Shown here: in pieces, positions 17,834 through 24,267 of the stretch
Numbering within the stretch: position 1 is the stretch's first letter
Layout: the number at the start of each line of letters is the position of its first letter
Notes under the pieces: model-generated
Told to the model about the DNA's origin: nothing
What the model saw: the letters and a program-made list of their open reading frames with translations, nothing else
Databases searched by the model: none
Program-made: the position numbers and the translations under genes
IMG/VR virus record: IMGVR_UViG_3300020578_000420
Location: 1 to 24,267 of that record
DNA: 24,267 nt
DNA from: a virus
Reading direction: 5' to 3' (one strand)

Positions 17834-18819
17834 GTTTTATTGATAAGAAGTACATTTCGTTATTGTCACCTCAACTTCAAAAATTTTCAAGAAAAAAAGA
17901 AGATTTATATAATTTTAGATGTCCTTATTGTGGAGATTCTCAACGCAATAAGAATCGAACTAGGGGATATCTTTACAGAGTAAAGAATGACTTCTTTTAT
18001 AAATGTCACAACTGTGGAGTAGGAACTACGTTTGTTAATTTTTTAAAACAAAACTCCCCACTTCTTTATGAGGAGTATCTTCTTGAAAGATATAAAGAGG
18101 GATTGACTGGAAAGGGATCTGTTGCACCTACCCCAAAATTTAATTTTAAAGCGCCTGTATTTAAGAAAACTATATTCTCAGAATTGGAAACCATCCAGGA
18201 TCTAAATATAACACACCCAGCAAGAAAATATCTAGAGCGTAGAAAACTACCATCAGAATACTTGCCCAAACTGTACTATTGTCCAAAATTTAAAGAATGG
18301 ACAAACAAGCATAAACCTACTTTTAAAGATACAAAGTATGATGAGTCAAGAATTATCATTCCAATGTTAACTAAAGATGGTGTCATAGGATTTCAAGGCA
18401 GATCATTATATCAATCTGCAATACGATACATCACAGTCATGTTAAATGATGACAATCCAAAAATTTATGGACTTGACAGAGTAGATGATTCAAAAAAAGT
18501 ATACATTACTGAAGGACCTTTTGATTCTTTATTTTTAGATAATGCAATTGCTATGTGTGGTGCTGACGTAAATGTTTCTCAATATGATTGGCAAAAGATT
18601 TACATCTATGACAATGAACCACGAAACCGACAGATTGTAAACAGGATGTTAAAGACAATTGATAGTGGAAATGAAATTGTTATTTGGCCATCACAAATAA
18701 AACAAAAGGATATTAACGATATGGTTTTAGCTGGACACGATGTTAAAAATGTGGTAGAATGCAATACCTACAAAGGACTTGAGGCAAAACTTAAATTTAC
18801 TGATTGGAAGCTAGTATGA
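17830..18819 (+). CDS. gp61: DNA primase (gp61)
   Basis: A 329-residue protein; T4 gp61 has 342. The N-terminal zinc ribbon has C31-x-x-C34 (CPYC) and C59-x-x-C62 (CHNC). The TOPRIM-type catalytic region contains VYITEGPFDSLFLDN with E228, and then KIYIYDNEPRNRQIV. It makes the RNA primers of Okazaki fragments together with gp41. It is separated from gp41 by mazG and a virion-type segment. The gene overlaps the membrane-protein gene before it and nrdA after it, both by ATGA. Confidence 0.93.
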   Translation: MSFIDKKYISLLSPQLQKFSRKKEDLYNFRCPYCGDSQRNKNRTRGYLYRVKNDFFYKCHNCGVGTTFVNFLKQNSPLLYEEYLLERYKEGLTGKGSVAPTPKFNFKAPVFKKTIFSELETIQDLNITHPARKYLERRKLPSEYLPKLYYCPKFKEWTNKHKPTFKDTKYDESRIIIPMLTKDGVIGFQGRSLYQSAIRYITVMLNDDNPKIYGLDRVDDSKKVYITEGPFDSLFLDNAIAMCGADVNVSQYDWQKIYIYDNEPRNRQIVNRMLKTIDSGNEIVIWPSQIKQKDINDMVLAGHDVKNVVECNTYKGLEAKLKFTDWKLV

Positions 18820-21101
18820 GTAATGGAATTAAAGTAAAAAAACGTAACGGATCTATTGCATCCCTGGATCTAGATAAAATTCATAGCATGGTTGAATGTG
18901 CATGTGGGGGATTGAGTGGAGTTTCTGCATCTCAAGTAGAAATTAATTCTGGAATTCAATTTTATGATGGTATCAAAACAGCAGAAATACAAGAGATTCT
19001 CATTAGGTCTGCATCTGATTTGATTGATCTTGATCATCCAAATTATCAATTTGTTGCAGCACGTCTCCTTTTGTTTGGTCTTAGGAAACAAATATTTGGT
19101 GTTCGCTGGGAACATCCTGCTTTTTACGATTATGTGGTTCAATGTGTTGATGCTGGTGTATATGATAGTGAAGTTCTTTCTAAATACAGTCAAGAAGAAC
19201 TTGAAACTATTGGTCAATGGATTGATCATGGAAGGGATTATTTATTCACCTATGCTGGTTTGCGTCAAGTAGTAGACAAGTATCTTGTACAAGACAGAAG
19301 TACTGGTAAAGTATATGAAACTCCTCAGTTCATGTACATGATGATCGCTGTTACTGTATTTGCTAATTATAATAGTGATCGTTTAGGTTATATTAGGAGA
19401 TATTACAATGCAATCTCAAAGCACAAAATCAACATCCCCACGCCCATCATGGCAGGAGTGCGAACGCCACTTAGACAATTCGCTAGCTGTGTTCTTGTTG
19501 ATGTTGATGACACCCTCGATAGTATCTTTAGTAGCGATATGGCTATTGGCAGGTATGTTGCACAACGTGCGGGAATCGGCATCAACGCAGGTCGCATCAG
19601 GGGCATCAACTCTAAGATTAGAGGTGGTGAAGTCCAGCACACTGGCGTTGTACCGTTTCTCAAAAAGTTTGAAGCAACTGTCCGTTGCTGTACGCAAAAT
19701 GGCATACGAGGCGGAAGCGCAACAGTCCACTTCCCAATCTGGCACCAAGAAATAGAAGATATTATTGTATTAAAAAACAATAAGGGAACTGAGGATAACC
19801 GTGTTCGTAAGTTAGATTACTCTATTCAAATCTCTAAACTGTTTTATGAACGATTCATTAACAATGAAACAATCTCCCTCTTCTCCCCACATGACGTGCC
19901 TGGTTTGTATGATGCTTTTGGAACTGATCGATTTGATGGTCTTTATGTGGATTATGAACGAGATCAATCTATTCCAAGAAAAATTATTGGAGCTCAAGAA
20001 CTCGTTCTTAATATTTTAAAGGAACGAGCAGAGACAGGTCGTATCTATATTATGAATATTGATCACTGCAACTCTCATTCTTCATTTAAAGATAAAGTGA
20101 ACATGAGTAATCTTTGCCAAGAGATTACTCTTCCTACTGATCCCATTAATCATATTGATGATGCTGATGGTGAGATTGCACTTTGTATTTTGTCTGCGGT
20201 CAATGTAGGAAAAATTCATAAATTAGATGAACTTGAAGAACTGTGTGATTTATCCGTTCGTGGGTTGGAGGAGTTGATTGACTATCAGAGATACCCTGTA
20301 AAGGCAGCAGAACGTGCTACAAAGGCACGTAGGTCCCTTGGAGTGGGTTTTATTGGTCTTGCCCATTACCTGGCAAAACATGGCGAGCATTACGACGAAC
20401 CTTATGCTTGGCAGTTAGTTCATGATCTTACCGAAGCATTTCAATATTACTTGCTAAAATCTTCTAATCAACTTGCAAAAGAAAAAGGAGCGTGTGAAGC
20501 ATTCAATAGAACCAAATACTTTGATGGTTTTCTTCCCATCGATACATATAAAAAAGACGTAGATCAAATTGTCCCTAATGAATTGAAATATGATTGGGAA
20601 ACTCTACGTGCCGACATTAAGGCACATGGATTACGACACTCAACGTTGTCCGCACAGATGCCTTCGGAGAGCAGTTCCGTTGTGTCAAATGCAACCAATG
20701 GAATCGAACCACCTCGTGGATACCTGTCCATTAAGAAATCGAAGAAGGGACCACTCAAGCAGATTGTTCCTCAGTATCAAACACTTAAGAACAATTATAC
20801 GCTTTTGTGGGATATGCATAGCAATATTGGTTATATTAACGTTGTTGCTGTTATGCAAAAATTTTTCGATCAAGCGATTTCTGGGAATTGGTCGTATAAT
20901 CCAGAAAATTACCCAGACAATGAAGTCCCCGTGTCAGTAATGGCACAAGATTTGTTGACCACATACAAGTATGGATGGAAGACATCTTATTATCAAAATA
21001 CATATGATATTAAAACAGATGAGGTAGAAGACAAACCAAAACTTTCAGACCTATTAGAAGACCTATCATCGGAGGAAGATTGTGAATCCTGTAAAATTTA
21101 A
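18816..21101 (+). CDS. nrdA: Ribonucleoside-diphosphate reductase, class I alpha subunit
   Basis: A 761-residue class I large subunit, the same length as E. coli NrdA. An N-terminal ATP-cone-like region (KVKKRNGSIASLDLDKI) controls activity. Catalytic residues are visible: C225 (FASCVL), the N432-x-C434-x-E436 radical site (SNLCQE), C457 (ALCIL) and the C-terminal shuttle pair C756/C759 (CESCKI). It reduces ribonucleoside diphosphates to deoxyribonucleotides with NrdB, feeding phage DNA synthesis. Two internal stretches, 19425-19745 and 20625-20765, are clearly more GC-rich than the rest. It overlaps nrdB by 20 bases. Confidence 0.98.
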   Translation: MSNGIKVKKRNGSIASLDLDKIHSMVECACGGLSGVSASQVEINSGIQFYDGIKTAEIQEILIRSASDLIDLDHPNYQFVAARLLLFGLRKQIFGVRWEHPAFYDYVVQCVDAGVYDSEVLSKYSQEELETIGQWIDHGRDYLFTYAGLRQVVDKYLVQDRSTGKVYETPQFMYMMIAVTVFANYNSDRLGYIRRYYNAISKHKINIPTPIMAGVRTPLRQFASCVLVDVDDTLDSIFSSDMAIGRYVAQRAGIGINAGRIRGINSKIRGGEVQHTGVVPFLKKFEATVRCCTQNGIRGGSATVHFPIWHQEIEDIIVLKNNKGTEDNRVRKLDYSIQISKLFYERFINNETISLFSPHDVPGLYDAFGTDRFDGLYVDYERDQSIPRKIIGAQELVLNILKERAETGRIYIMNIDHCNSHSSFKDKVNMSNLCQEITLPTDPINHIDDADGEIALCILSAVNVGKIHKLDELEELCDLSVRGLEELIDYQRYPVKAAERATKARRSLGVGFIGLAHYLAKHGEHYDEPYAWQLVHDLTEAFQYYLLKSSNQLAKEKGACEAFNRTKYFDGFLPIDTYKKDVDQIVPNELKYDWETLRADIKAHGLRHSTLSAQMPSESSSVVSNATNGIEPPRGYLSIKKSKKGPLKQIVPQYQTLKNNYTLLWDMHSNIGYINVVAVMQKFFDQAISGNWSYNPENYPDNEVPVSVMAQDLLTTYKYGWKTSYYQNTYDIKTDEVEDKPKLSDLLEDLSSEEDCESCKI
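21071..21076 (+). promoter_or_regulatory. Ribosome binding site fixing the GTG start of nrdB
   Basis: GGAGGA lies 5 bases before GTG 21082, inside the nrdA 3' end. It decides for the GTG start over the downstream ATG 21130 and supports translation directly after nrdA. Confidence 0.8.
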
Positions 21102-22260
21102 ACTTAACGAACCAAATAACTTTGATGGCATGACTGTATTTAATATTAATCAAAATGAAATTAAGAAGCAACCAATGTTTTTTGGAGCACCACTTGGATT
21201 GCAAAGATATGATTCGTACAAATATCCTATCTTTGATAAGTTAACTCAACAACAACTTGGATATTTTTGGAGACCTGAAGAGGTCTCCCTTCAAAAAGAT
21301 CGTGCAGATTTTGCACACCTTAGATCAGAGCAAAAACATATCTTTACTTCTAATTTAAAGTATCAGATTCTTCTAGATTCTGTCCAAGGTCGTGGTCCTG
21401 GTATGGCATTTATTCCATATTGTTCTTTGCCAGAACTTGAAGCATGTATGACGGCATGGGAATTTATGGAAATGATTCATAGTCGTTCCTATACATATAT
21501 TATTAAAAACGTTTACGCAGATCCATCTGAAGTATTTGATACTATTTTAAATAATGATAGGATTTTAGAGAGAGCATCTTCAGTAACAGATGCATATGAT
21601 GATTTTATTAATTCTGCACAACAGTATGGAACATCTAATGCTTGGATTTACGCACAAGAGGGTGCAGGAAGTGCGAGACAAGATAGAATTGAGTTAAAGA
21701 GAAAACTCTATAGGGCAATTGCTAATGTCAACATTCTCGAAGGTATCAGGTTTTATGTCTCGTTCGCTTGCAGCTTTGCATTTGGTGAACTCAAACTTAT
21801 GGAAGGATCCGCTAAAATTATCTCTCTCATCGCAAGAGACGAAAATCAACACCTTGTCATTACTCAAAACATCCTCAATAAGTGGCGTGAAGGAGATGAT
21901 CCAGAGATGCAACAAATTGCTAGGGAGGAACAGGATTGGGTAGTTCAAGCATTTAAAAATTGTGTTGATCAAGAAAAGGATTGGGCGCAATATTTATTCA
22001 AAGATGGATCAATGATTGGTCTCAATGATAAACTTTTGATCAATTATGTTGAATGGATTGCCAATCGTCGTATGAAAGCAATTGGAATCAAACCACTTTA
22101 TGATGTGTCTGCTAAGAACAATCCACTTCCTTGGACTGAACATTGGATCTCTTCTAAGGGACTTCAAGTTGCTCCTCAAGAAACTGAGGTTGAATCATAT
22201 GTTGTTGGTGGTATTAAACAAGATGTAAAGCAAAATTCTTTTGCTGGATTCAAACTGTGA
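21082..22260 (+). CDS. nrdB: Ribonucleoside-diphosphate reductase, class I beta subunit
   Basis: A 392-residue ferritin-like small subunit with GTG start. The metal/radical site is intact: E130, H133 and Tyr137 in MEMIHSRSYTYII (equivalent to E. coli E115, H118, Y122), then EGIRFYVSFACSFAFGE and IARDENQHL, which supply the remaining iron ligands. The preserved tyrosine suggests a class Ia or Ib-type tyrosyl radical. It forms the holoenzyme with NrdA. No glutaredoxin gene follows in this window. The end overlaps a possible small ORF. Confidence 0.98.
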   Translation: MNPVKFKLNEPNNFDGMTVFNINQNEIKKQPMFFGAPLGLQRYDSYKYPIFDKLTQQQLGYFWRPEEVSLQKDRADFAHLRSEQKHIFTSNLKYQILLDSVQGRGPGMAFIPYCSLPELEACMTAWEFMEMIHSRSYTYIIKNVYADPSEVFDTILNNDRILERASSVTDAYDDFINSAQQYGTSNAWIYAQEGAGSARQDRIELKRKLYRAIANVNILEGIRFYVSFACSFAFGELKLMEGSAKIISLIARDENQHLVITQNILNKWREGDDPEMQQIAREEQDWVVQAFKNCVDQEKDWAQYLFKDGSMIGLNDKLLINYVEWIANRRMKAIGIKPLYDVSAKNNPLPWTEHWISSKGLQVAPQETEVESYVVGGIKQDVKQNSFAGFKL

Positions 22261-22412
22261 AAAGAAAGGAGTTTGAAAAACTGATGGAGTTGAGGGAGAG
22301 GTTGCTGGAAAACAATGGACCCAACAGCCTCTCAGCAGCATGGGCGCTGTGGGCAATAGAGCAGAAGATGAAAAGAATTGGCGTATCCCTGACCCTTAGT
22401 TCAACTGAATAG
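22257..22412 (+). CDS. Small ORF downstream of nrdB (51 codons)
   Basis: An ORF from GTG 22257, which overlaps the nrdB stop, to TAG 22412. ATG 22284 is an alternative start giving 42 residues; AAAGGAG lies 13 bases before it, a long spacing. The product begins with a charged helix (KRKEFEKLMELRERLLENN) and continues SLSAAWALWAIEQKMKRI, an amphipathic helix with two tryptophans. Its codons are much more GC-rich than those of its neighbours (CTG, AGG, GCG, CCC). It has no stop over the whole gap between nrdB and the late-promoter-like box, which favours a real gene. No function is recognised. Confidence 0.55.
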   Translation: MKRKEFEKLMELRERLLENNGPNSLSAAWALWAIEQKMKRIGVSLTLSSTE

Positions 22413-22419
22413 ATAAATA
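22412..22419 (+). promoter_or_regulatory. Late-promoter-like box before the GIY-YIG gene
   Basis: GATAAATA begins on the last base of the small ORF stop codon and lies 16 bases before ATG 22436. The short leader is like that at 13023-13030. Confidence 0.5.
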
Positions 22420-22435
22420 TCTCTAGTGAATAGAG

Positions 22436-22867
22436 ATGTTTATGTATGAGAACCCATGGTTTTTTAATGATAATGTATTTGATTCTGATGAAATAAATGG
22501 TTATTATGGATTTGTTTATTTGATTACAAATTTATGTAATGATCGAAAATATATTGGTAGAAAATACTTTTGGTCTTTTACAAAAAAGAAAGGACAAAAC
22601 AGGAGAACCAAATCTGAATCTGATTGGAGAAATTATTATGGGTCTTGTCCTGAACTTAAAGAAGACGTTAGGAAATATGGTAAAGAAAATTTTCAAAGAA
22701 TTATTCTAAGTTTGCATACAACCAAGGGTCAGTGCAACTACGAAGAGACCCGCCAGTTATTCATTAATAATGTTTTGACAGAATCCTTGACAGAAGGGGT
22801 TCCTGTATACTATAATAGCAACATCCTTGGACGCTACATGCGAAAAGATTATTATGGAAAAGCGTGA
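22436..22867 (+). CDS. GIY-YIG nuclease-domain protein
   Basis: A 143-residue protein. GFVYLITN (residues 25-32) and KYIGRKY (38-44) correspond to the two strands of the GIY-YIG core, with R42 near the expected catalytic region. YYGSCPELKEDVRKYGKENF then matches the conserved helix of GIY-YIG homing-type nucleases. NYEETRQLF supplies a glutamate of the type that binds metal. Related single-domain proteins are widespread in T4-like marine phages. Possible roles are homing, host DNA degradation (T4 DenA is a GIY-YIG enzyme) or branched-DNA processing. ATG 22442 is an alternative start; neither has a strong ribosome binding site. The 3' end carries a near-consensus promoter. Confidence 0.72.
   Translation: MFMYENPWFFNDNVFDSDEINGYYGFVYLITNLCNDRKYIGRKYFWSFTKKKGQNRRTKSESDWRNYYGSCPELKEDVRKYGKENFQRIILSLHTTKGQCNYEETRQLFINNVLTESLTEGVPVYYNSNILGRYMRKDYYGKA
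22787..22816 (+). promoter_or_regulatory. Near-consensus sigma-70 promoter (TTGACA-N18-TATAAT)
   Basis: Both hexamers are perfect: TTGACA 22787-22792 and TATAAT 22811-22816, with an 18-base spacer. It lies in the 3' end of the GIY-YIG gene and 37 bases before ATG 22854. A second TTGACAGAA copy at 22775-22783 makes a direct repeat with 22787-22795. It is a good candidate for an early promoter of the 50-residue ORF. Confidence 0.6.
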
Positions 22868-23006
22868 ACTGCTTAAAACTGTTGATTGGATTGTAGATAG
22901 GATTCATCATCTGGCAGAACATAACGACTATGGGAGTGCAGTTGCACTACAGGAAGAATTTGATGAGTGGTTGTCTCCTAACACTTTTCTTGAATTTGTA
23001 GATTGA
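22854..23006 (+). CDS. Small hypothetical protein (50 aa)
   Basis: A short ORF encoding MEKRELLKTVDWIVDRIHHL, then AEHNDYGSAVALQEEFDEWL and a final LEFVD. It looks like a compact two-helix acidic protein. It overlaps the GIY-YIG gene by 14 bases and follows a near-consensus sigma-70 promoter. There is no clear Shine-Dalgarno. Its codon use resembles its neighbours. No function is recognised. Small acidic early phage proteins are often host-takeover factors, but nothing in the sequence shows that here. Confidence 0.6.
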   Translation: MEKRELLKTVDWIVDRIHHLAEHNDYGSAVALQEEFDEWLSPNTFLEFVD

Positions 23007-23010
23007 ATTT

Positions 23011-23018
23011 ACTAAATA
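23011..23018 (+). promoter_or_regulatory. Late-promoter-like box before the peptidase gene
   Basis: ACTAAATA contains CTAAATA, a late-promoter form reported for cyanophages. It lies 23 bases before ATG 23042, with TTTAGGT in between as a weak ribosome binding site. It would drive the peptidase and lysozyme genes late, as expected for lysis or virion enzymes. Confidence 0.55.
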
Positions 23019-23041
23019 CATTCAGTGTTTAGGTAAATCTA

Positions 23042-23713
23042 ATGACCCTAGATCTTCATAACTTTTTTAAATTTTATGATGACGCTAATGATAATCACGT
23101 AGCAGCAGTCCAATGGTTAGAAGACAACCTACCTGCTCAATTCTTAGATGACGCAGAAACTGATTGGATTAGTATTTTTAGAACCAAACCACCAACACCA
23201 GAAGTTCTCGCAGTTCCTTACTTCAACCAAGTAGATAACTATAGAGATGCTCATAGAACCTGTAACTCTTCATCGTGCGCTATGTGCCTTGCTTTCCTCA
23301 AGCCAGGTAGCATCAAAGGCGATGATGAATATGTCAAGAAAGTATTTGCGATTGGTGATACGACTGACCATGCCGTACAGACAAAAGTTCTGGCAGGTTA
23401 TGGAATTAAGTCGCACTTTAGCTATAATCTTTCTTTTGCTGATGTTGATCGTAGCCTCGATGCTGGGAAACCTGTTGTTATTGGTATCCTTCACAGGGGT
23501 TCTTTATCTAATCCTACTGGTGGACACATGTGTGTAGTCATCGGTAAGACACCAGATGGCAAAGGATATTTTGTCAACGATCCATATGGTTCATTGAATG
23601 ATAACTATACTGGTCCAGTTACAAATGGTAAGAAAACCGTTTATACCAAAGCAGTTCTTAAGCATCGTTGGTGTCCAGGTGGCAACGATGGTTGGGGTAG
23701 AATTTTCGACTGA
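23042..23713 (+). CDS. C39-like (papain-fold) peptidase with shared N-terminal module
   Basis: A 223-residue protein. Residues 4-47 (LHNFFKFYDD, AAVQWLEDNLP, DWISIFR) form a module also present in the next protein. From residue 57 the sequence follows the peptidase C39-like pattern. VPYFNQVDN leads to the likely nucleophile C74 (TCNSSSCAM). GDTTDHAVQTKVLAGYGI is a conserved middle stretch. H162 (GGHMCVVIG) and D180 (VNDPYG) complete the likely triad. The family cleaves peptide bonds; in phages such domains are seen in virion or lysis-associated hydrolases, where the peptide of the cell wall is a plausible target. There is no signal peptide or membrane segment. The lysozyme gene follows 14 bases later. 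Confidence 0.78.
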   Translation: MTLDLHNFFKFYDDANDNHVAAVQWLEDNLPAQFLDDAETDWISIFRTKPPTPEVLAVPYFNQVDNYRDAHRTCNSSSCAMCLAFLKPGSIKGDDEYVKKVFAIGDTTDHAVQTKVLAGYGIKSHFSYNLSFADVDRSLDAGKPVVIGILHRGSLSNPTGGHMCVVIGKTPDGKGYFVNDPYGSLNDNYTGPVTNGKKTVYTKAVLKHRWCPGGNDGWGRIFD

Positions 23714-23714
23714 T

Positions 23715-23720
23715 AGGAGG
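23715..23720 (+). promoter_or_regulatory. Ribosome binding site of the lysozyme gene
   Basis: AGGAGG, a full Shine-Dalgarno core, lies 7 bases before ATG 23728 and just after the peptidase stop. It predicts strong translation of the lysozyme gene. Confidence 0.75.
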
Positions 23721-23727
23721 CACAACA

Positions 23728-24267
23728 ATGGCAACAATCGATTTACACAACTTCTTCAAGTTCTATGACGAGAAGAATCCTAACCATGTTAAGGCAGTTC
23801 AATGGTTAGAAGATAATTTACCAGTTAAATATCTGGAAGATAATATTGATTGGGCGGAGATTTTTAGAGGAAAAAAGGGTAATGCTGCACCAGCACCTGC
23901 TGCTGCAGCTCCTGTAACAGGTGGTGATGATGTTCCAATGATGGGTCTAAAACTCATCAAAGAGTTTGAAGGGTGCCACCTCAAGGCATATCCTGATCCT
24001 CTCACTGGTGGACTTCCAATCACTATTGGTTGGGGATCTACTCGTAAGAAGGATGGATCACACTTTAAAATGGGTGATACACTAACACAGGCAGAAGCGG
24101 ATGCACTTCTCATTGAGCAGTGTAAGAATGAGTTTCTTCCTGCACTTCGTAAAGTACCACACTGGAGTGAAATGTCAGATGGAAAAAGAGGAGCTCTTCT
24201 CAGCTTTGCTTATAATCTTGGTGCTGGTTTCTACGGGGGCTCTAACTTTAATACTATTACTAAACGC
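23728..24267 (+). CDS. T4-type lysozyme (GH24) with shared N-terminal module, 3' truncated
   Basis: The gene runs off the window; 180 codons are visible without a stop. Residues 5-47 repeat the module of the preceding peptidase (DLHNFFKFYDEKNPNHV, AVQWLEDNLP, DWAEIFR). An Ala/Pro linker (APAPAAAAP, 54-62) leads to the lysozyme domain from about residue 71. The catalytic triad is visible as E81 (KEFEG), D90 (YPDPLTG) and T99 (ITIGWG), i.e. E-x8-D-x8-T, three residues longer in the second gap than T4 gpE. LLSFAYNLGAGFYGGS matches the later conserved helix. It would hydrolyse the glycan strands of peptidoglycan. No signal peptide is seen, so a cytoplasmic endolysin needing a holin, or a virion-borne enzyme, are both possible. 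Confidence 0.88.
   Translation, partial: MATIDLHNFFKFYDEKNPNHVKAVQWLEDNLPVKYLEDNIDWAEIFRGKKGNAAPAPAAAAPVTGGDDVPMMGLKLIKEFEGCHLKAYPDPLTGGLPITIGWGSTRKKDGSHFKMGDTLTQAEADALLIEQCKNEFLPALRKVPHWSEMSDGKRGALLSFAYNLGAGFYGGSNFNTITKR

Follow-up and report, generated by a model that had tools for sequence, protein, structure and literature searches.

A module common to adjacent cyanophage lysins and cyanobacterial wall enzymes, probably a wall-targeting repeat

Results

The lysin gene pair

The window, a stretch of 24,267 nucleotides of viral DNA (IMG/VR record IMGVR_UViG_3300020578_000420), ends in two adjacent genes on the plus strand that encode lytic-type enzymes. The first (23042..23713; 223 aa, without a signal peptide) encodes a short N-terminal module and a C39-like, papain-fold peptidase. 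The module (copy A, residues 1-47; 23042..23182) matches the A1 profile, with helices modelled at residues 5-10, 17-29 and 41-46. It is followed by a Peptidase_C39_2 domain at residues 56-182 (23207..23587; Pfam PF13529, E 2e-13; 51.5 bits against a curated cut-off of 24), for which a fold search returned C39-like peptidases. The predicted papain-type triad of Cys74 (23261..23263), His162 (23525..23527) and Asp180 (23579..23581) is present and is invariant among diverse relatives. The gene closes with a double stop, TGA TAG (23711..23716), at which the slippery heptamer of the frameshift-type relatives described below is absent. An AGGAGG ribosome-binding site (23715..23720) then precedes the ATG and module of the second gene.

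The second gene (23728..24267, plus strand) is read for 180 aa up to the window edge; complete homologues are about 223 aa long. Copy B of the module (residues 1-47; 23728..23868; helices at 6-11, 18-30 and 41-47) is joined by an Ala/Pro/Gly linker (residues 48-70; 23869..23937), reading GNAAPAPAAAAP, to a Phage_lysozyme (GH24) domain at residues 78-173 (23959..24246; Pfam PF00959, E 2e-16; 60.9 bits against a curated cut-off of 22.3), which is incomplete at the window end. E81, D90 and T99 match the GH24 pattern by position, and the linker lies where it had been predicted. The window GH24 sequence is 70% identical to that of phage S-PM2.

Both enzymes combine a wall-hydrolase domain with the lack of a signal peptide, as endolysins do, and the genes are taken to be endolysins of a T4-like cyanophage (Kyanoviridae) with a presumed function in lysis. 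The C39 peptidase would cut the peptide part of peptidoglycan and the GH24 muramidase its glycan. In the window (18804-24267) the pair follows nrdA, nrdB and a GIY-YIG-like gene; lysin genes also lie directly after nrdA and nrdB in S-PM2, S-CREM1 and S-CREM2. The enzymes themselves are ordinary, and it is the shared domain that is unusual.

An old duplication maintained by selection

Residues 1-47 of the two proteins align with 67% identity, and the local alignment score of the modules (184) far exceeds the maximum from 2000 shuffles (53). The remainders of the proteins score 31 against a shuffled mean of 29, so that the original prediction of one N-terminal module of about 47 residues on two otherwise unrelated proteins was borne out. 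It had also proposed that the duplication is old and that selection keeps the module, which agrees with the divergence of the window copies (0.18 at nonsynonymous sites, with synonymous sites saturated). Across 101 distinct A/B pairs, nonsynonymous divergence (pN) was about 0.16 with synonymous sites near saturation, and nucleotide identity between A and B was 0.72 both within and between genomes. This equality indicates an old duplication whose copies have been kept by selection and have not been homogenised. Gene conversion between the copies was tested for in the same 101 pairs and was not found.

The nearest named relatives, Synechococcus phages DSL-LC02 and DSL-LC03 (Kyanoviridae), carry the same gene pair with one module each. 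In DSL-LC02 a small ORF with a signal-like N terminus lies between the two lysin genes (L001:3644-4027). Within the window clade in IMG/VR, the ORF after each module-C39 gene with enough contig also bears the module and is in nearly every case a GH24, in a tally drawn from two overlapping query sets. In a module tree, A and B separate into two groups, and the single-module phage S-SZBM1 falls close to the base of both; the tree rests on 40 columns, which resolve little and are too few to place the duplication exactly.

Structure of the module and its relation to known families

An AlphaFold model of copy B alone consists of three helices (mean pLDDT 86). The model of the full C39 protein has the same helices, followed by a junction of lower confidence and then by a well-predicted papain-fold core, which resembles C39-like peptidases, with the phage pseudomurein endoisopeptidase PeiR further down the list of matches. 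The module is thus modelled as a separate unit and not as an integral part of each catalytic fold.

Pfam held no family for either module (E up to 1), nor a match to the module regions of 10 host or metagenome-assembled genome (MAG) proteins, and the module had no match at NCBIfam cut-offs. No counterpart was found in the PDB (best fold E 7.5, best profile E 1.3), and none of PG_binding_1, LysM, SH3 and the PMB repeat (PF09373) matched the module by profile. Membership of a known wall-binding family was rejected on the basis of the Pfam, NCBIfam and PDB searches. The top viral fold matches were lysins of the phages ACG-2014f and S-N03 (TM 0.85 and 0.67). A search of the open-access literature found no description of the module.

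Distribution among cyanophages

The module (M) was found on C39, GH24, GH19 and GH73 lysins in several orders: M-C39-GH24 in ACG-2014f; GH24-M-C39 in S-CREM1 and S-CBS2; M-C39-GH19 in MA01; GH73-M-C39 in P-SS2 and S-CRES2; M-GH73-C39 in S-CBS1; M-C39 in S-CBP2, S-SRP02, S-PM2, S-CAM7 and S-SRM01; and M-GH24, which was also seen among cyanophages. S-CREM2 keeps a C39 without the module beside an M-GH19 protein, and the C39 stop there overlaps the module-GH19 start (ATGA; L019:3034-3037). The module is mobile: it spans cyanomyo-, cyanopodo- and cyanosiphoviruses, and across phages and hosts it occurs in N-terminal, internal or C-terminal position, in one to five copies, and its partners come from eight or more catalytic or binding families that are unrelated to one another, rather than from one enzyme family only. 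Viral contigs were scanned with single-module and C39 queries; one GH19-type module query returned no match.

When 20 whole cyanophage genomes were searched with the profile, only lysins matched, and no capsid or tail protein carried the module. S-CBP1, DSL-LC07 and S-ShM2 have C39 lysins or tail proteins that lack the module, which indicates that it is not essential.

Distribution among cyanobacteria

The module profile matched 43 of 386 sampled cyanobacterial genomes, or 41 of 384 when two matching seeds were left out, against 0 of 594 non-seed genomes from three other phyla (41/384 versus 0/594, Fisher p 6e-18). A few MAGs labelled as other phyla also matched, probably through mis-binning.

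The host partners were chiefly wall enzymes: GH25 with PG_binding_1 and, after it, one to five modules; Amidase_2 with the module between a pair of PG_binding_1 domains; and further YkuD, M15, C39 with GH19, and PG_binding_1 alone. Some sites enter the partner ORF counts repeatedly, so that these are not counts of independent cases. Among 20 host loci, mostly lower-ranked, 14 had a wall enzyme or PG_binding_1, three encoded Trypsin_2 with Pilin_GH, and three were stand-alone modules or fragments. The Trypsin_2 and Pilin_GH proteins (L401, L402, L417), which have an N-terminal hydrophobic segment and two C-terminal modules, are the only partner class found without an evident wall enzyme, and suggest that the ligand of the module may be a wider envelope component. 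Stand-alone module proteins of ~57-83 aa without a signal peptide (L373, L383, L414, L415) were found in Prochlorococcus-sized genomes (1.7-1.8 Mb), and a simple wall anchor does not explain them.

An N-terminal hydrophobic stretch was absent from 73 of 77 host ORFs and from all phage ORFs, as it is from endolysins. A prophage origin of the host genes was tested at five sites. At three of them, two with GH25 and one with C39, the neighbours were plain housekeeping genes, which speaks against such an origin there; the other two, both picocyanobacterial, were less clear. Two cyanobacterial chromosomes carry two adjacent module-C39 genes (L388:6531-9018, L392:8169-10653), an echo of the window.

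A probable frameshift between C39 and GH24 in relatives

The last codons of the S-PM2 C39 gene are GCA AAA AAG TAA, and a GH24 frame without a start codon lies open at -1 relative to it. A set of 71 loci in which a module-C39 gene is followed by a module-less GH24 was assembled from two scans; a few loci repeat the same phage, and the junctions form 38 clusters below 90% identity. GH24 lay in the -1 frame at all 71, and at 70 the C39 frame carried a slippery heptamer just before the stop, mostly A AAA AAG and rarely A AAA AAA or T TTT TTT. In the rest of these reading frames only 2 of 7486 codon positions had the heptamer, and it stood at 0 of 42 C39 genes without such a GH24 downstream. The -1 frames encoded an intact GH24 with the catalytic pattern in 70 of 70 cases (155-172 aa where complete).

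Most junctions are followed by a predicted hairpin (mean z -2.9 over the 38 clusters, 61% below -2). In one family of 16 sequences, 98% of the cells pair, with three compensatory changes (1/500 shuffles), compared with 21-59% pairing in slid controls. The hairpin is weak or absent in several members, S-SRM01 for example. Simple translational coupling was considered and rejected for the set as a whole: ATGA or GTGA overlaps occur in some loci, yet a start codon before the GH24 domain is absent from 40 of the 71. Where little structure coincides with an ATG overlap, as in S-SRM01, coupling may replace slippage.

These observations point to a programmed -1 frameshift that probably joins the module-C39 and GH24 reading frames in S-PM2-, S-CAM7- and S-SRM01-like cyanophages (L005:3678-3687, L021:3193-3208, L004:3690-3702 and L420-L518), and we infer that it operates in vivo. 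At 12 further loci C39 and GH24 are fused in frame. The frameshift signal would explain why the muramidase of S-PM2 and S-CAM7 figures in public annotation as a fragment: the GH24 lysin is there made to start at a codon inside the gene, and the products, of 72 and 90 aa, lack the catalytic Glu (L005:3957-4175, L021:3445-3717). No frameshift in a cyanophage lysin was found described in the open-access literature.

Discussion

Role of the module

We consider it likely that the module is a hitherto undescribed repeat for wall targeting, mobile, specific to cyanobacteria and the phages that infect them, and carried by endolysins. It would keep each enzyme at the sacculus of the cyanobacterium, on peptidoglycan or on an attached polymer, during host lysis. 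A portable targeting domain for a peptide-cutting and a glycan-cutting enzyme, as first proposed, is well supported by the range of at least eight partner families and by the self-contained three-helix fold. Among the sites that had been suggested, the cell wall fits, whereas the baseplate and capsid fit poorly: the module is absent from the structural proteins of the 20 genomes, module lysins went undetected in the virion proteomes of S-CREM2 and P-SS2, and cyanobacteria bear the module on their own wall enzymes.

Other roles must be weighed against wall targeting. The persistence of two adjacent module-bearing genes in the window clade, the adjacent pairs in cyanobacterial chromosomes (L388, L392) and the stand-alone module proteins would all suit a protein-protein pairing domain, through which the C39 and GH24 copies bind each other or a common partner in a two-enzyme lysis complex, without binding the wall. 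However, many single-module proteins have no module-bearing neighbour in the stretch examined, and arrays of three to five modules after PG_binding_1 in GH25 proteins, or a module between PG_binding_1 domains in amidases, occupy the usual positions of wall-binding repeats; pairing is accordingly unlikely, although it is the foremost of the alternatives. The mostly N-terminal position of the module, directly beside C39, would suit a regulatory role, either as a pro-domain or as a part built into the catalytic fold. This is very improbable for a domain that also occurs internally and C-terminally, in up to five copies and with so many unrelated families, and that forms a helical unit of its own in the model, where the junction is predicted with lower confidence.

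Docking of both enzymes into the virion, at the baseplate or capsid, as entry lysins is more improbable still. S-ShM2 does encode a 1205-aa protein with C39 and GH24-like domains next to a tail gene (L020:914-4531), but this protein lacks the module, and cyanobacteria bear the module on enzymes of their own. The virion proteome of S-CREM2, of 52 proteins, includes the tail-region lysins ORF208, 209 and 213, while ORF168 (C39), ORF169 (module-GH19) and ORF170 are absent from it (PMC10665884; ORF numbering cross-checked), and ORF098 of P-SS2 (GH73-M-C39) yielded 0 peptides in its virion proteome (PMC2784084); these absences are negative evidence from two relatives. Neutral baggage spread by recombination among lysin genes would fit a short and highly mobile module, yet it is the least credible reading, given the strong purifying selection on both copies and the repeated, differing routes by which the module has been attached to GH24.

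With wall targeting as the preferred role, the GH24 enzyme would reach the module by in-frame fusion, by -1 ribosomal frameshifting or, as in the window, by a second copy on a separate gene. Relatives join both enzymes in one chain, in frame or probably by frameshifting, so the second module of the window is one of several such routes. Their multiplicity is the best argument that the muramidase may benefit from the module, tempered by S-CREM2, whose C39 has none. Taken as a whole, the picture is of an unnamed, cyanobacteria-specific wall repeat common to host enzymes and cyanophage endolysins, with which the muramidase is supplied in at least three ways, among them a frameshift giving both C39 alone and C39-GH24, and a duplicate copy; this composite account is probable, held slightly less firmly than the targeting role itself.

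The opening of the cyanobacterial wall by cyanophages is poorly described, and several of the lysins concerned bear the annotation hypothetical or truncated. Naming the module would give a handle for finding and sorting lysins in phages of both marine and freshwater picocyanobacteria, and a way to test which part of the cyanobacterial wall is recognised. If true, the frameshift would be a case in which translational recoding sets the ratio of two lysin activities.

Comparison with known systems

The window peptidase resembles Peptidase_C39_2 (PF13529) in its profile score, Cys-His-Asp triad and C39-like fold, and differs in carrying the unnamed module and in belonging to a cyanophage lysin, not a peptide exporter. 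The muramidase likewise matches the Phage_lysozyme/GH24 family (PF00959) by profile and by its E-D-T pattern; its own N-terminal module sets it apart, the orthologues being module-less and frameshift-joined or fused in frame. The endolysin profiles PHROG 3617 and PHROG 10051 combine the module with C39 and GH24 in a single chain, both orders being represented, but neither delimit the module nor assign it a function; the window divides this chain between two genes, each with a module of its own.

In dnaX-type programmed -1 frameshifting, A AAA AAG is read in frame, a -1 product is made and a hairpin lies downstream. The relatives have the heptamer in frame, a predicted -1 product and, in most cases, the downstream hairpin, and differ in that two cyanophage lysin domains would be joined; the window has no such site.

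PG_binding_1 (PF01471) is, like the module, a small accessory domain at the same positions in wall hydrolases, and the two co-occur; its sequence is different, and the module has no profile match to it. A functional parallel would be the PMB repeat (PF09373) of PeiW, PeiP and archaeal surface proteins, a lineage-restricted wall-binding repeat of 30-35 residues that occurs both in surface proteins of the host and in cysteine-peptidase lysins of its phages (PMC3124540). The C39 domain also has PeiR among its fold matches. In Pfam the module did not match PF09373, and its hosts are cyanobacteria rather than archaea; the PMB repeat needs two or three motifs to bind, whereas most phage enzymes here have one module. 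The module, although outside all the named families tested, is best read as one that would work like the archaeal pseudomurein-binding repeat.
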